From: Fictibacillus sp. FJAT-27399
Lineage (GTDB): Bacteria > Bacillota > Bacilli > Bacillales > Fictibacillaceae
Assembly: GCF_001510655.1 (NCBI RefSeq)
Contig: NZ_LMVC01000007.1
Coordinates: forward strand, 1-64,000
Length of the DNA stretch: 64,000 nucleotides
Direction of reading: 5' to 3'
In this document: positions 45,598 to 61,592 of the stretch, piece by piece
How the letters are laid out: every line of letters starts with the position of its first letter
Position numbering within the stretch: position 1 is the stretch's first letter
Program-made: the position numbers and the translations under genes
The notes under the pieces: generated by a model
The model's database searches: none
What the model saw: the letters and a program-made list of their open reading frames with translations, nothing else
What the model was told of the DNA's origin: nothing

Positions 45598-45648
45598 AAA
45601 AGAAGCTTCCCACAAGTTTGTTTAACTTATGAGAAACTTCTTTGATCT
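45598..45648. terminator. element-end hairpin, copy 1
   Basis: AGAAGCTTCCCACAAGTTT and AACTTATGAGAAACTTCT pair imperfectly. The same kind of hairpin stands next to the att core or recombinase end at 50935, 59113 and 61433, so it belongs to the inserted elements. The interval from here to tetR is short. Confidence 0.65.
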
Positions 45649-45687
45649 TTCTCAAAACCTCATATATCAAGGCTTTCAGGGGCGTCT

Positions 45688-45705
45688 TTACATCATGCCG
45701 CGCAT
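45688..45705. repeat. att core (groEL 3' end), leftmost copy
   Basis: TTACATCATGCCGCGCAT matches the groEL end with one mismatch. It is preceded by AACCTCATATATCAAGGCTTT, which also precedes the groEL-proximal copy. The stretch 45706-46215 after it holds no gene I can support. Confidence 0.85.
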
Positions 45706-46215
45706 AGATTGTGGAGTTATACATCACAACATCATACAATCTAACCCTTAATTAAAGCACATAACGAAACATTGGTTCTCCACTGGAATATCACTGAGCA
45801 ATATAAAATAATCTCGATATCGGCACCCATTCGGTACCAATCCATTCCTTTGGTATGTTTTAAAATTAGATTGCATATAATTCGCCATTGTAGTGGAATA
45901 TGTCAATTAGACTTTCTGTTCTAATATCTTTCCAGGCATCACAATACAAAAAAAGAATACTTTTTAAACATTGCATGTCTTCCATGTTCCAGAACATAAT
46001 TTACGTTGAATCTCCTCGCCACTTGTTCTCTAAGCTAATTTGTGTAATTCCTTTAGAGCCGTTTCCTAGAGCTGTCTAAAGCAAAAAATTTGATTTTGGG
46101 TTTAAAGGAAAATAATATAGAGATATTGCAAATTACCAATATCCTTTTGTTCGATTAGTTTATACGGATTCCAAGCAAAATAGATTTTAATAAGATCAGG
46201 AAGGGGCGGGCACCG

Positions 46216-46557
46216 ATGAATCGGGAATCAAATATGATAAATGACGAACAGGCAGTTGAAATTTTCAAGGCTCTGTCAAATCAAATAAGAGTAAATATTC
46301 TTCAAATGTTGAAAGAACCTGATAATAATTTTTCCCCGCAGACCCATGTCATCAAGGAAAAAGGCTTTGATGGCGGGGTTTGTGTCAGTGATATTCGCAG
46401 CAAAGTAGGACTATCACAGTCCACTACCTCCCAGTATTTGTCTATCCTATTGCAAAGCGGTCTGGTTGAAATGAAACGAATCGGACAATGGACTTATTAT
46501 CGACGCAATGAGGAAACCGTTAAACAGTTTGAAAAGTATATAGGCTTAAAAATATAA
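46216..46557 (+). CDS. ArsR-type winged-helix regulator
   Basis: 113 residues with an ArsR/SmtB winged helix (EIFKALSNQIRVNILQML, then VSDIRSKVGLSQSTTSQYLS and the wing MKRIGQWTYYRRN). No Cys metal-site pair is seen in the recognition helix, so it is probably not a classical metal sensor. GGAAGGGG lies upstream of the ATG. It starts the operon with the luciferase-like monooxygenases and is probably its repressor. Confidence 0.9.
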   Translation: MNRESNMINDEQAVEIFKALSNQIRVNILQMLKEPDNNFSPQTHVIKEKGFDGGVCVSDIRSKVGLSQSTTSQYLSILLQSGLVEMKRIGQWTYYRRNEETVKQFEKYIGLKI

Positions 46558-46578
46558 CCTTTTTGAGGAGGACCAAGA

Positions 46579-47532
46579 GTGAGTTTTCAAAATCATCGTG
46601 CCTATAACAGCATGTACCAGAAAGACAAAATGACACTTGGATTTGTCCTCCCGACTGCCAGGATGTCTAAAAATCCGATTATGGAGAATCAACTGGAGCT
46701 TGCCCGTAAAATTGAAGAATATGGCTTTGCTTCATTATGGCTCCGTGATATTACGATGCAGAATTTGAATATTGATGATAACGGCCAAAAGTACGATTTA
46801 TGGATTTATTTGACGTATCTTGCGGCCTATACGAAGCACATTGCGTTAGTGACAGGAAGTGTAGTTCTCCCTTTGCGCCACCCCGTCAGGGTAGCCAAGG
46901 AAGCTGCATCAATCGATCAATTGTTTCCAAGTCGATTGATTATGGGGGTGGCATCAGGGGACAGGGAAAAAGACTTTACAGCTTTAGGGATATCTAAGCA
47001 AGAAAGCGGTCCGTTATTTAAAGAAAATTTCGAAATTCTCGACCGGCTGTTAAAAGAGGATCAGCCGACAATCCACAGCCACGCCGGGCTGATCGATGGT
47101 ACAGATATGAGGTTAATCCCAAAGCCTGTATCTTCGATTCCGACCATGGTGACTGGATTTAGCAATCAGTCTATCAATTGGATAGCCAGGAATGGGGATG
47201 GGTGGCTTCAATACCCTAGAAGCATTATTCAACAGGCGAAGCTTATCCAGGATTATCGTGCTTTAACTGAAGGAGATTTTAAACCCTTTTCTCAAAGCTT
47301 GTTCATCGATTTATCGGAAAATCCCGATGAAATGCCTGTCCCAATACCCTTAGGCTATTCCGTGGGAAGAAACCGTTTAGTTGATCTGCTTCATCAATTT
47401 CAAGCGATTGGGGTCAACCATTTGGCGTTTGTTCTGTATTTTTCCAAGCGCCCTCCAGAGGAAGTAATCCAGGAACTTGGAGAATTTGTTTTACCCTACT
47501 TTCCAACCCATAAAGGTACAGGCCAGCTTTAA
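46579..47532 (+). CDS. luciferase-like flavin monooxygenase (BA3436-like)
   Basis: 317 residues from a GTG start with GAGGAGG seven bases before it. It is a bacterial luciferase-like (LLM) TIM barrel: start MTLGFVLPTARM, GFASLWLRDI, VTGSVVLPLRHPVRVAKEAASID, RLIMGVASGD, GWLQYP. FMNH2-dependent oxidation of an unknown organic substrate is expected. It may belong to the BA3436 luciferase-type family (recalled). Second gene of the ArsR-led operon, 21 bases after the regulator. Confidence 0.9.
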   Translation: MSFQNHRAYNSMYQKDKMTLGFVLPTARMSKNPIMENQLELARKIEEYGFASLWLRDITMQNLNIDDNGQKYDLWIYLTYLAAYTKHIALVTGSVVLPLRHPVRVAKEAASIDQLFPSRLIMGVASGDREKDFTALGISKQESGPLFKENFEILDRLLKEDQPTIHSHAGLIDGTDMRLIPKPVSSIPTMVTGFSNQSINWIARNGDGWLQYPRSIIQQAKLIQDYRALTEGDFKPFSQSLFIDLSENPDEMPVPIPLGYSVGRNRLVDLLHQFQAIGVNHLAFVLYFSKRPPEEVIQELGEFVLPYFPTHKGTGQL

Positions 47533-47564
47533 AAAATTAAATTGTATATAAAGGAGGATGAATT

Positions 47565-59990: not shown

Positions 59991-60182
59991 TTATACCTCT
60001 TGAAATCTAGGGATTGTTTTACCTTCAACTTCTACCTCCTCAAAAAACATATCATACGGTCTAGCAAAACTAGTTCCTTCTTCATTTTTATAGACAACCA
60101 ACTTTTCATCCGTTTCTGAATGAATGGCAATGCATACAAACTCATACATTGCACCTTTATAATGTCGATATTTTTTCACCAT
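59991..60182 (-). CDS. DUF1653 protein
   Basis: 63 residues with the full DUF1653 pattern (YRHYKGAMYEFVCIAIHSET, LVVYKNEE, ARPYDMFFEEV, PRFQEV). These small beta proteins have unknown function and are common in phage and mobile-element contexts. It has an AGAGG site and a gap of 18 bases to the preceding membrane gene. Confidence 0.88.
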   Translation of the reverse strand: MVKKYRHYKGAMYEFVCIAIHSETDEKLVVYKNEEGTSFARPYDMFFEEVEVEGKTIPRFQEV

Positions 60183-60200
60183 TCTCTACCTCCGTACTAA

Positions 60201-60557
60201 TCAATCTTCCAAAATCAAAGGTAAAATCAGGACTAATGCCATTAATACACCTAATGCAGACACATAACCCCATTCCTTTTCATTAACTGTAAACCCTATT
60301 AGAATAGTTAGAATAACGTTTGCAATTATTAGAAAGATGGTTAGCTTCTTGTTTTTCTTTTTAGCAGGAGTATTTTCGTTATAAGTATGAATCTCTTCAC
60401 GAATCATTTTATCAACGTCACGTTCAATAGTATCATCCAAAAAACTCAAAAAATGCTCTTTTTGTTCTACAGGTGTTTCATCGTATTTTTCTTGGAGCAG
60501 TTCTTTTAGAGTTTGTTCTTTCTGGGCTTTGATTAATGTATCACGTAATTGACTCAT
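60201..60557 (-). CDS. coiled-coil/two-TM membrane protein
   Basis: 118 residues from the ATG at 60557 (GGTGA five bases upstream); it overlaps the Dcd-like gene by 17 bases. The N-terminal 65 residues are charged coiled-coil helix, then a basic KKKNKK stretch and two transmembrane helices (about 73-92 and 97-115). No family recognised. Tight coupling to the Dcd-like gene suggests that it acts with it, perhaps as a membrane effector or anchor (inference). Confidence 0.7.
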   Translation of the reverse strand: MSQLRDTLIKAQKEQTLKELLQEKYDETPVEQKEHFLSFLDDTIERDVDKMIREEIHTYNENTPAKKKNKKLTIFLIIANVILTILIGFTVNEKEWGYVSALGVLMALVLILPLILED

Positions 60558-61242
60558 CTGCGTCACCAAGTTTTTGTCTAATAACATCAGCGTAATGCTT
60601 TGCATTTTCTTCAATGCGCTTCATCAAATGCCGTCCTAACATTCTTGCAGATTCACCTGAAATTTCACCTAGTCCATTCTCTAAAAGATATTCTTGAATA
60701 TCCTTATCGAGGTGAAGCTTAGATATATGTACTTCACGGCTTCCCATATACTTACCATCTTGTTTCGTATATGGCTTATCTGAAACAGAAGTTAACTCAG
60801 TTATAGCCAATTGGCAAAACTTCACCCCTGAGATCAGTTGAACCGGTACAGGTGTGTTATTAGTTATAAGGAAACTCAATCGTCCCTCATACCCTGGATT
60901 CATATAACTTGCCGGACTTACTACCAAACCCATAAGTTTAATGCTATATCTTTCTAAGATAATTGCAGCCATATTTGTTGGGATTTTGAAATACTCATAG
61001 GCCTGAACTAAGACTGACTCATTAGGTTTTAAATAGAAGTCCTCTTCGTTTATATCAATTGTTTGATAATGCTCGTCAGATAATTTACTCCCCATTACAA
61101 TACTTTCGCTTGATGTGTATCTTTTTATTTGGGTGTCCAAAGTTAAGTTAATTGTAGCTCCCTCACAATTTTCTTCGATAAACGGAGTTACTAGCTCGTT
61201 ATTTATCGCAAGTTCTTTGAGGTGCTTATCGCTCAATAACAT
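60541..61242 (-). CDS. dCTP deaminase-like protein with altered active site
   Basis: 233 residues. The Dcd/dUTPase fold is evident: LLSDKHLKEL start, ERYSIKLMGLVVSP (in place of the usual RSS...GL), ASYMNPGYEGRLSFLITN and VKFCQLAI. In true Dcd the segment after DPGWxG reads LEF with a catalytic Glu; here the aligned position is Leu125 (SFLI), so deamination is doubtful. A C-terminal extension of about 60 residues (to 233) exceeds usual Dcd. Phage-activated dCTP deaminases are known defence proteins; this member may instead be a nucleotide-binding sensor (inference). First gene of the operon. Confidence 0.75.
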   Translation of the reverse strand: MLLSDKHLKELAINNELVTPFIEENCEGATINLTLDTQIKRYTSSESIVMGSKLSDEHYQTIDINEEDFYLKPNESVLVQAYEYFKIPTNMAAIILERYSIKLMGLVVSPASYMNPGYEGRLSFLITNNTPVPVQLISGVKFCQLAITELTSVSDKPYTKQDGKYMGSREVHISKLHLDKDIQEYLLENGLGEISGESARMLGRHLMKRIEENAKHYADVIRQKLGDADESIT

Positions 61243-61432
61243 ACTTTTCCCCTCCTCTATTAAGTTTTATTATGATTTACCCTGTTTGAAAAAACAATAA
61301 CCAATGTTAAATTTACGCAAATCATTCACAAAACTACCACCTCCGAAAAGATGGGGGTTGTTTTACGGACGCATCTGCTTTTTTTCACTTCATCTTAATG
61401 CTCATTTAAAAACACATGACCCCTAATATGGA

Positions 61433-61482
61433 AGAAAAGGCCTCCCACCAGTTTAGCAAACTGATGAAAGACCTTCTCTAAT
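61433..61482. terminator. element-type hairpin, copy 4
   Basis: AAGGCCTCCCACCAGTTT and AAACTGATGAAAGACCTT form an imperfect stem. It lies between the operon promoter region and groEL. The rest of 61243-61574 has the repeated TATGAGCAAAATTATGAGCA and the CCTCATATATCAGGGCTTT segment but no gene. Confidence 0.75.
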
Positions 61483-61574
61483 AATTGTTTTTTCATGTTA
61501 CTATGAGCAAAATTATGAGCATTTGTAACTTAACACCTTAAAACCCCTCATATATCAGGGCTTTATGATGTTTA

Positions 61575-61592
61575 TTACATCATGCCGCCCAT
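61575..61592. repeat. att core within groEL, fifth copy
   Basis: TTACATCATGCCGCCCAT, the reverse complement of the codons for MGGMM and stop of groEL. As the recombination site lies at the gene end, insertion keeps groEL intact. Confidence 0.92.

Follow-up and report, generated by a model that had tools for sequence, protein, structure and literature searches.

The 3' end of groEL in Fictibacillus sp. FJAT-27399 has very probably been built into an array of attachment (att) sites by tyrosine-integrase elements, which recombined one after another with the end of this gene. The window, meaning the whole stretch of 64,000 nucleotides (nt) that was analysed (positions 1 to 64,000 of contig NZ_LMVC01000007.1), includes groEL at 61575–63215 on the minus strand; this gene of 546 amino acids (aa) was located by tblastn, and insertion is targeted to its 3' end. 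An att array at the end of a housekeeping gene had been proposed in a first-pass annotation of the sequence, and repeated core sites, integrase scars, an empty site in a strain of the same species and the association of related integrases with groEL in other genomes all agreed with that proposal.

Core sites at the groEL terminus

The core, TTACATCATGCCGCCCAT, corresponds to the terminal 18 bp of groEL and occurred five times, always on the minus strand. Counting outwards from the gene, core 1 (61575–61592, no mismatch) is the groEL 3' end itself and the left boundary (attL) of an element termed E1, while core 2 (54341–54358, no mismatch) is the right boundary (attR) of E1. Core 3 (52486–52503) had one mismatch; core 4 (51072–51089, no mismatch) and core 5 (45688–45705, one mismatch) are the left and right boundaries respectively of a second unit, E4. 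In the direction of groEL the copies read ATGGGCGGCATGATGTAA, with the stop codon last. Search and shuffling therefore bore out the five positions first reported, three identical and two with a single mismatch: no core match was obtained at three mismatches or fewer in 100 dinucleotide shuffles, and the 4.5-Mb, 13-contig genome contained no sixth core at one mismatch or fewer, the next best match having two.

Alignment of the core flanks, as the first-pass annotation had suggested, showed that the 18 bp were common to all five sites and that divergence was immediate beyond them, except after cores 2 and 3, where the adjoining segments were 87–89% alike. Among the 300-nt stretches preceding cores 2 to 5, mutual matches were short (up to 22 nt; the best was 19 nt, E = 9e-4). 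Therefore, the core copies mark joints and not a larger duplicated block. The similarity after cores 2 and 3 might otherwise be put down to a local tandem duplication, or to gene conversion, that copied the groEL 3' end along with neighbouring DNA; however, this is largely contradicted because the flanks are unlike. The segment common to cores 2 and 3 was, moreover, the leader of an integrase that other families of the order have beside a core, and cores recurred with integrases across genera. Duplication was considered extremely improbable.

Integrase remnants of two families

Translation of the flanks showed that integrase remnants adjoined all five cores, rather than three as first thought, and that they came from two distantly related tyrosine integrase families with approximately 20% identity. 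At cores 1, 4 and 5 the remnant was the C-terminus of a 'type A' integrase, directed at the core and groEL. At cores 2 and 3 it was the N-terminus of a 'type B' integrase, which faced groEL while the gene was directed away from the core. Type A integrases combined Arm-DNA-bind_4 and Phage_integrase domains (5/5 tested against Pfam), whereas type B integrases were XerC-like, approximately 303 aa in length, and did not have that arm domain (2/2 tested).

The type A remnants, all on the plus strand, comprised a C-terminal piece in E1 at 61425–61481 (NMEEKASHQFSKLMKDLL-stop), a fragment at 50718–50954 in E4 with a Pfam Phage_integrase match and 80% identity to an integrase of the relative G005, and a broken scar at a further attL end at 45596–45687 (KKEASHKF..LMRNFF). 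Type B was represented in the window by left ends only, both on the minus strand. The first (53867–54340) consisted of an attL leader (54191–54340) and the broken N-terminal half of the integrase, in pieces within 53867–54190; the second (52276–52485) consisted of a leader and the first integrase codons. Of the recurrent modules that had been described beside the cores, a CCTNATATATNAGG-like segment did recur after cores 1, 4 and 5, but the supposed terminator hairpin proved to be the 3' end of the integrase gene, MEEKASHQFSKLMKDLL-stop and its variants at the same three cores. An inverted repeat after the core was tried as a general att feature and rejected, since its enrichment in relatives was weak (24/65, against 21% in shuffles).

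When the genome was searched with a type A integrase (E ≤ 1e-10), nothing was found beyond the 79-residue fragment at 50718–50954. A different contig contained a type B relative (54% identity), but the surrounding 3.9 kb that were read had no core. These observations suggest that the array is probably not able to move by itself at present.

Arm repeats and element boundaries

Type A ends carried pairs of direct repeats ('arm codes') inside the core. E1 had matching repeats at both ends, TGCTCATAATTTTGCTCATA at 61502–61521 (minus strand, 53 bases inside core 1) and TGCTCATAATATTGCTCATA at 54462–54481 (minus strand, 104–123 bases inside core 2; 0/200 shuffles as good), and was thus recognised as a type A unit bounded by cores 1 and 2. 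E4 was a second, decayed type A unit bounded by cores 4 and 5, with arm pairs AGGTGCTGAAAAGGTGC at 51001–51017 and TGGTACCGAATGGGTGCCGA at 45820–45839, both on the minus strand; its attR fitted the arm code of a related locus, L260 (0/60 shuffles). Across named genomes, a tandem repeat of at least 7 nt was present in 58/65 attL ends, compared with 3.5% in base shuffles. The attL code returned 122–146 nt before the distal core, with no shuffle in 200 as good, in seven of the 13 elements tested: E1 and those of G001 (G001a), G002, G005, G014, G015 and G023 (relatives are referred to by such numbers). Weaker matches were obtained for E4 (5/200), G010 (6/200), G019 (16/200) and G029 (4/200).

An attempt to assign arm codes to the ends preceding cores 3 and 4 was abandoned, the matches not being significant (17/60 and 5/60 shuffles as good). 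The segments between cores 2 and 3 and between cores 3 and 4, of 1.4–1.8 kb, are not clean elements, because a type B end stands opposite an end without an assignable code; they look like composites.

Empty and occupied sites in relatives

The strain G004, of the same species, had one core at groEL, and the bases directly after it were those found after core 2 in the window; this junction represents the empty site of E1. Beyond the core, approximately 170 nt were followed by a 105-nt gap and then by the sequence that lies left of 43.53 kb in the window. Further cores in this genome comprised two on another contig and a one-mismatch match 2.1 Mb away. Of E1 and E4, only E1 had an empty site in a strain without it. 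G005 has a 22-kb element that is ICE-like (resembling an integrative and conjugative element) by the gene content read from its sequence; beyond its distal core, the flank matched the one after groEL in G004 (163 nt, 86.6%).

The comparison with related genomes that had been called for at the outset did reveal empty sites. A core was present in 33 of 34 genomes of the family, and exactly one in 18 of these by the core pattern, or 17 once the one-mismatch second core of G006 is counted. At the 16 single-core family loci that were read (L082–L097), no type A integrase was found by tblastn at 1e-8, and short scars were visible at some. The expectation that sequence at 45.6 kb would join directly to groEL in relatives was mistaken; the clean join was at core 2, for E1. 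Since approximately 105 nt in G004 take the place of 43.53–54.17 kb in the window, the variable block probably exceeds 16 kb in length and its outer limit at 45.6 kb is uncertain. The first-pass description of an accretion island formed by repeated insertion and decay was upheld, with the extent of 16 kb probably an underestimate.

The E4 block was also found in G001 and G006, which are different species. Its main part was 97.4% identical to G001 and 97.8% to G006, with smaller pieces at 90–96%, including one of 145 nt at 90%, while the groEL flanks of this strain were 89.7% and 90.1% identical to the same two genomes. Between G001 and G006 the block was 96.3% identical and the groEL flanks 85.5%. 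That the block is more alike than the groEL flanks among the three species indicates that it has spread horizontally of late.

These relatives bear on a further alternative, that a composite island, with several cores already in it, arrived in a single event and formed the array. Composite segments do exist in relatives (the two ends of the G006 segment do not match), the E4 block is 95–98% identical between species, and E1 contains an integrase scar that has no core. Against this, E1 possesses matched ends of its own, as well as a separate empty site within the species, and different cores are associated with differing arm codes and with two integrase families. Acquisition in a single step was judged unlikely, and successive insertion preferred.

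Several observations nevertheless weigh against successive insertion of discrete elements. The two short segments described above combine a type B end with an opposite end whose arm code could not be assigned. The two ends of E4 matched weakly (5/200 shuffles as good), and neither in G001 nor in G006 could a distal core be recognised at this block. The ends of G001b (196/200) and G006 (192/200) failed the arm-code test, which suggests composites there, and elements with one arm code matched each other as well as themselves, so that the test demonstrates a shared code and not identity. The 'empty' site of G004 carries a type B end as a scar of its own, and the stretches before cores 2 and 4 are weakly similar (the 19-nt match noted above). 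Finally, neither excision nor a circular form of these elements has been observed.

Two other arrangements among relatives were recorded. G030, which belongs to another genus of the family, had five groEL cores distributed over contigs C82, C95 and C101 (L074–L077), i.e., a second multi-core array, with integrase remains adjoining both cores on C82. In G006 (L040–L041), a BREX island lay between two groEL cores, and its ends had differing arm codes (TTGTCCTCG and TGCTAACA-like); it is probably a composite of two elements.

Distribution of type A integrases

The core pattern was applied to a sample of 397 genomes from the order. It occurred at least once in 361 of these, and at least twice in 84 by a hand count to which a second groEL or chance may have added some. 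Among the matches listed, 18 genomes had two or more on one contig, and every one of these (18/18) had a same-strand pair no more than 45 kb apart; G410 had an additional, distant core match on the opposite strand. When an alignment (A1) of seven type A integrases was used as the query, named genomes yielded at least 536 relatives, of which the best 80 were placed: 56 lay within 300 nt of groEL, nine were beside a core (at most one mismatch) without a groEL frame, six were within 4 kb of groEL, one was at a contig edge and eight were at none of these. Intact integrases beside the core, for which the first-pass annotation had proposed a search, were found in many other genomes. Those at groEL included representatives from Paenibacillus, Desulfosporosinus, Pelotomaculum, Megasphaera and Staphylococcus pasteuri. 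A quick tree of 106 type A sequences (5 of 111 rows were dropped for having more than two stops) did not place groEL targeting in a single clade; with 23 label changes, compared with 33.3 in shuffles, the trait was clustered but not monophyletic.

In viral contigs, at least 80 stretches had a core; among the 80 listed, a type A integrase was rightly placed in 32 and a type B integrase in two. Searching viral contigs for the type B integrase gave two relatives. Six viral contigs had two same-strand cores 14–42 kb apart, as would be expected of predicted prophages. The groEL tail was matched in 37 records of a plasmid collection and four of a phage collection, and Bacillus was not represented among these; of the plasmid places, 15 out of 37 were annotated groL/GroL.

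Type B elements in relatives

The integrase adjoining groEL in G003 was used to search 299 genomes (E ≤ 1e-40). This produced 30 loci in 30 genomes, one in each. A core lay just before the gene in eight loci (G003, G073, G231, G065, G277, G104, G238 and G035), which were those of highest identity (at least 62.8%), while the remaining 22 had no core there. A groEL frame adjoined six of the eight, being absent in G104 and G238. In G073, G231 and G277, type B elements of 6–12 kb were bounded distally by a second copy of the groEL tail, 122, 95 and 240 nt long respectively, with a core at its end; in G003, a 130-nt groEL tail was found on another contig, and in G035 a type A integrase remnant followed the distal core without a groEL tail before it. 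The two tails in G231 differed at six of 95 bases, but the encoded peptide was identical.

These second tails indicate that the type B crossover takes place within the gene and that the element supplies the GroEL C-terminus; by repeating the groEL tail, an insertion also duplicates the type A core. The first-pass annotation had explained the integrity of groEL by each element bringing back the lost end. This applies to a few bases for type A and to 95–240 nt for type B, the gene being whole in both cases.

The type B segments in the window could also be regarded as the native 3' flank of groEL, comprising a terminator and a resident recombinase gene, for they have a terminator-like hairpin and they follow both the only groEL core of G004 and the distal core of G005. 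This reading was dropped on account of the closed elements of G073, G231 and G277, in which a segment begins with this kind of integrase and ends in a second tail and core; furthermore, tblastn detected no type B integrase at the 16 single-core loci that were read in the family. It is very unlikely, and the segments are treated here as ends of type B elements.

Truncated groEL tails with a core, 87–107 nt long and away from groEL, were observed in G004 (contig C4, 192 kb; L035, 12008–12095 and 19455–19541) and in G001 (contig C1; L043, 4610–4714). The two in G004 stood 7.4 kb apart around a methyltransferase-like gene, with an in-frame stop inside. They may represent type B element ends; the contig concerned in G004 is plasmid-like.

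Gene content

E1 contained four cargo frames, all on the minus strand. The largest (54787–59025) was a single open frame of 1412 aa encoding an Avs2-like STAND NTPase; PADLOC identified it as Avs2 (E = 5e-234), the NCBIfam Avs2 model gave 687 bits, under its cut-off of 1000, and there was no Pfam match. This is likely an anti-phage gene. The others were a dCTP deaminase family protein of 233 aa (60541–61242; TIGR02274, 109.8 bits, above the cut-off of 92.8), a 137-aa frame (60201–60614) without a match in Pfam, NCBIfam or PADLOC, and a 253-aa frame (59245–60006) with a weak type II specificity match (E = 1e-4), no NCBIfam match and no Pfam match for its 188-aa part. The coreless integrase C-terminal scar lay at 59119–59172 on the plus strand and was 87% like the scar near groEL; an older fusion may lie within E1 itself.

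The cargo of E4 (46216–50324, plus strand) consisted of an ArsR regulator, three LLM-class oxidoreductases, two of which were profile-tested, and a truncated SDR. Between cores 2 and 3 there was a 294-aa frame (52707–53591, minus strand) with nothing but weak DNA-binding matches, and between cores 3 and 4 an IS21 IstB remnant (51761–52219, plus strand). Scans with Pfam, NCBIfam and PADLOC recognised no phage-inducible replication or packaging genes among the E1 and E4 frames scanned, and no conjugation genes among those scanned in the window. Elsewhere in the window, two purine riboswitches were observed approximately 1.9 kb apart on the minus strand (22611–22712 and 24512–24613).

In E1 and in relatives, PADLOC (E < 1e-40) was applied to large frames picked by eye, the segments of G014, G015, G018, G025 and G030 lying outside the scan. 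Defence-gene matches were obtained in nine of ten core-bounded type A segments: Avs2 in E1, PDC-S28 in G001a, Lamassu in G002, a methyltransferase in G005, BREX in G006, type III restriction-modification in G010, type I restriction-modification in G019 and G023, and PDC-S28 with Dsr2 in G029, where the integrase was inside the segment and not at groEL. The single frame scanned for G001b had no match. For type B, restriction-modification matches were obtained in G277, G065 and the G003 contig, but not in G073 (one frame) or G231 (two frames).

Discussion

The proposed sequence of events is as follows. Type A elements use the last 18 bp of groEL, and the N-terminal arm-binding domain of their integrase presumably holds the direct-repeat pair approximately 53 nt inside attL and its match approximately 120–145 nt inside attR. 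Type B elements cross over further upstream, within the groEL frame, and replace the last 30–80 codons; groEL remains whole after either kind of insertion. In the window, the survivors with two matched ends are E1, with its Avs2-like gene, and E4, with its LLM oxidoreductases. The pair of type B ends and a further type A end are scars, and the segments between cores 2 and 3 and cores 3 and 4 would be fusions left by deletions. The sequence itself displays the cores, arms, scars, empty and occupied sites and the association of integrases with groEL, whereas the insertion order, the binding of the arms, the deletions and the present immobility are inferred. Because type B needs the groEL tail, whatever lies between the type B scars and groEL is presumably younger, so that the type B ends suggest a later arrival of everything between them and the gene.

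We cautiously favour a more general model, in which the groEL end is a shared and self-multiplying landing pad, used by type A across Bacillota and by type B so far in this order. Two distant families with opposite gene orientations would use it; type B would swap the last 30–80 codons and leave a second tail with a fresh type A core, type A would leave a further core, and the stack would form a record in which the newest element is nearest groEL. The usual cargo would be anti-phage defence.

The statement in the first-pass annotation that staphylococcal islands integrate near groEL was correct and has experimental support. According to the published account, SeCISE48 of S. epidermidis was transferred and integrated at the groEL 3' end, where the last 18 bp overlap the att site and the gene is unaltered, and its excision and transfer were observed (PMC8125051). 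Other papers indicate that groEL is also used by fusB islands (PMC4651549) and SaPI2R (PMC4457420), and that an integrase tree includes a groEL group (PMC5341023); PMC10094739 is among papers naming groEL as an insertion site, in staphylococci or with a related integrase tree. As in SeCISE48, 18-bp groEL-end repeats bound E1 (cores 1 and 2) and E4 (cores 4 and 5, the latter with one mismatch), and the integrase stands beside the core in the staphylococcal islands and in the elements described here. Membership of one family with a staphylococcal groEL island integrase was found through S. pasteuri L236 and not through the integrase of SeCISE48 itself, the window holding remnants only; the L236 integrase, beside groEL, grouped within the type A tree, shared the Pfam domains and had its own arm pair. 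Unlike the staphylococcal islands, the array described here has several cores, is partly decayed and belongs to a Bacillus relative; it involves a second integrase family, and the content of the elements is varied (ICE-like, predicted prophages and defence islands).

Type A integrases shared their Pfam architecture (5/5) with the Tn916-like tyrosine integrases that have Arm-DNA-bind_4, and had arm repeats on both sides. Their structure matches included 'Int protein' chains 2kiw and 6emy–6en2, of which we take 2kiw and 6emy to be Tn916/Tn1549 integrase structures. They are unlike Tn916-like integrases in that the groEL end is where most of their close relatives are located. At tRNA and tmRNA hotspots and in defence islands, as here, insertion is repeated, att copies are stacked and defence genes are carried; unlike tRNA and tmRNA hotspots, the target here is a protein-coding chaperonin gene. 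Phage 21 and e14 have an attB in common at icd, the 3' end of which is re-supplied, while mycobacteriophage Bxb1 inactivates groEL1.

The case of icd in E. coli (PMC12803456) resembles type B in that insertion occurs in a housekeeping gene and the 3' end is re-supplied, and two elements share one attB there as they do here, although the gene differs and the two integrases here are only approximately 20% identical. Bxb1 uses groEL1 of Mycobacterium smegmatis as its attB (PMC2884959), so a chaperonin gene is again the target, but with a serine integrase and in the second groEL copy of an actinobacterium. Given the staphylococcal precedents and Bxb1, the principle was already known. In the open-access literature, no published account was found of groEL as attB in Bacillales, nor of a multi-core array, a second family with long groEL tails or the breadth of use within Bacillales. 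What is possibly new is the stacking of two families at one gene end, along with that breadth.

The gene for the chaperonin, a housekeeping protein, is a widespread integration site in Bacillales. With the core and the arm codes known, defence islands, ICEs and prophages at the groEL end can be found and delimited by sequence, and stacked insertions may become orderable from the same signals. In the case of type B, mobile DNA supplies the C-terminal tail of an essential protein.

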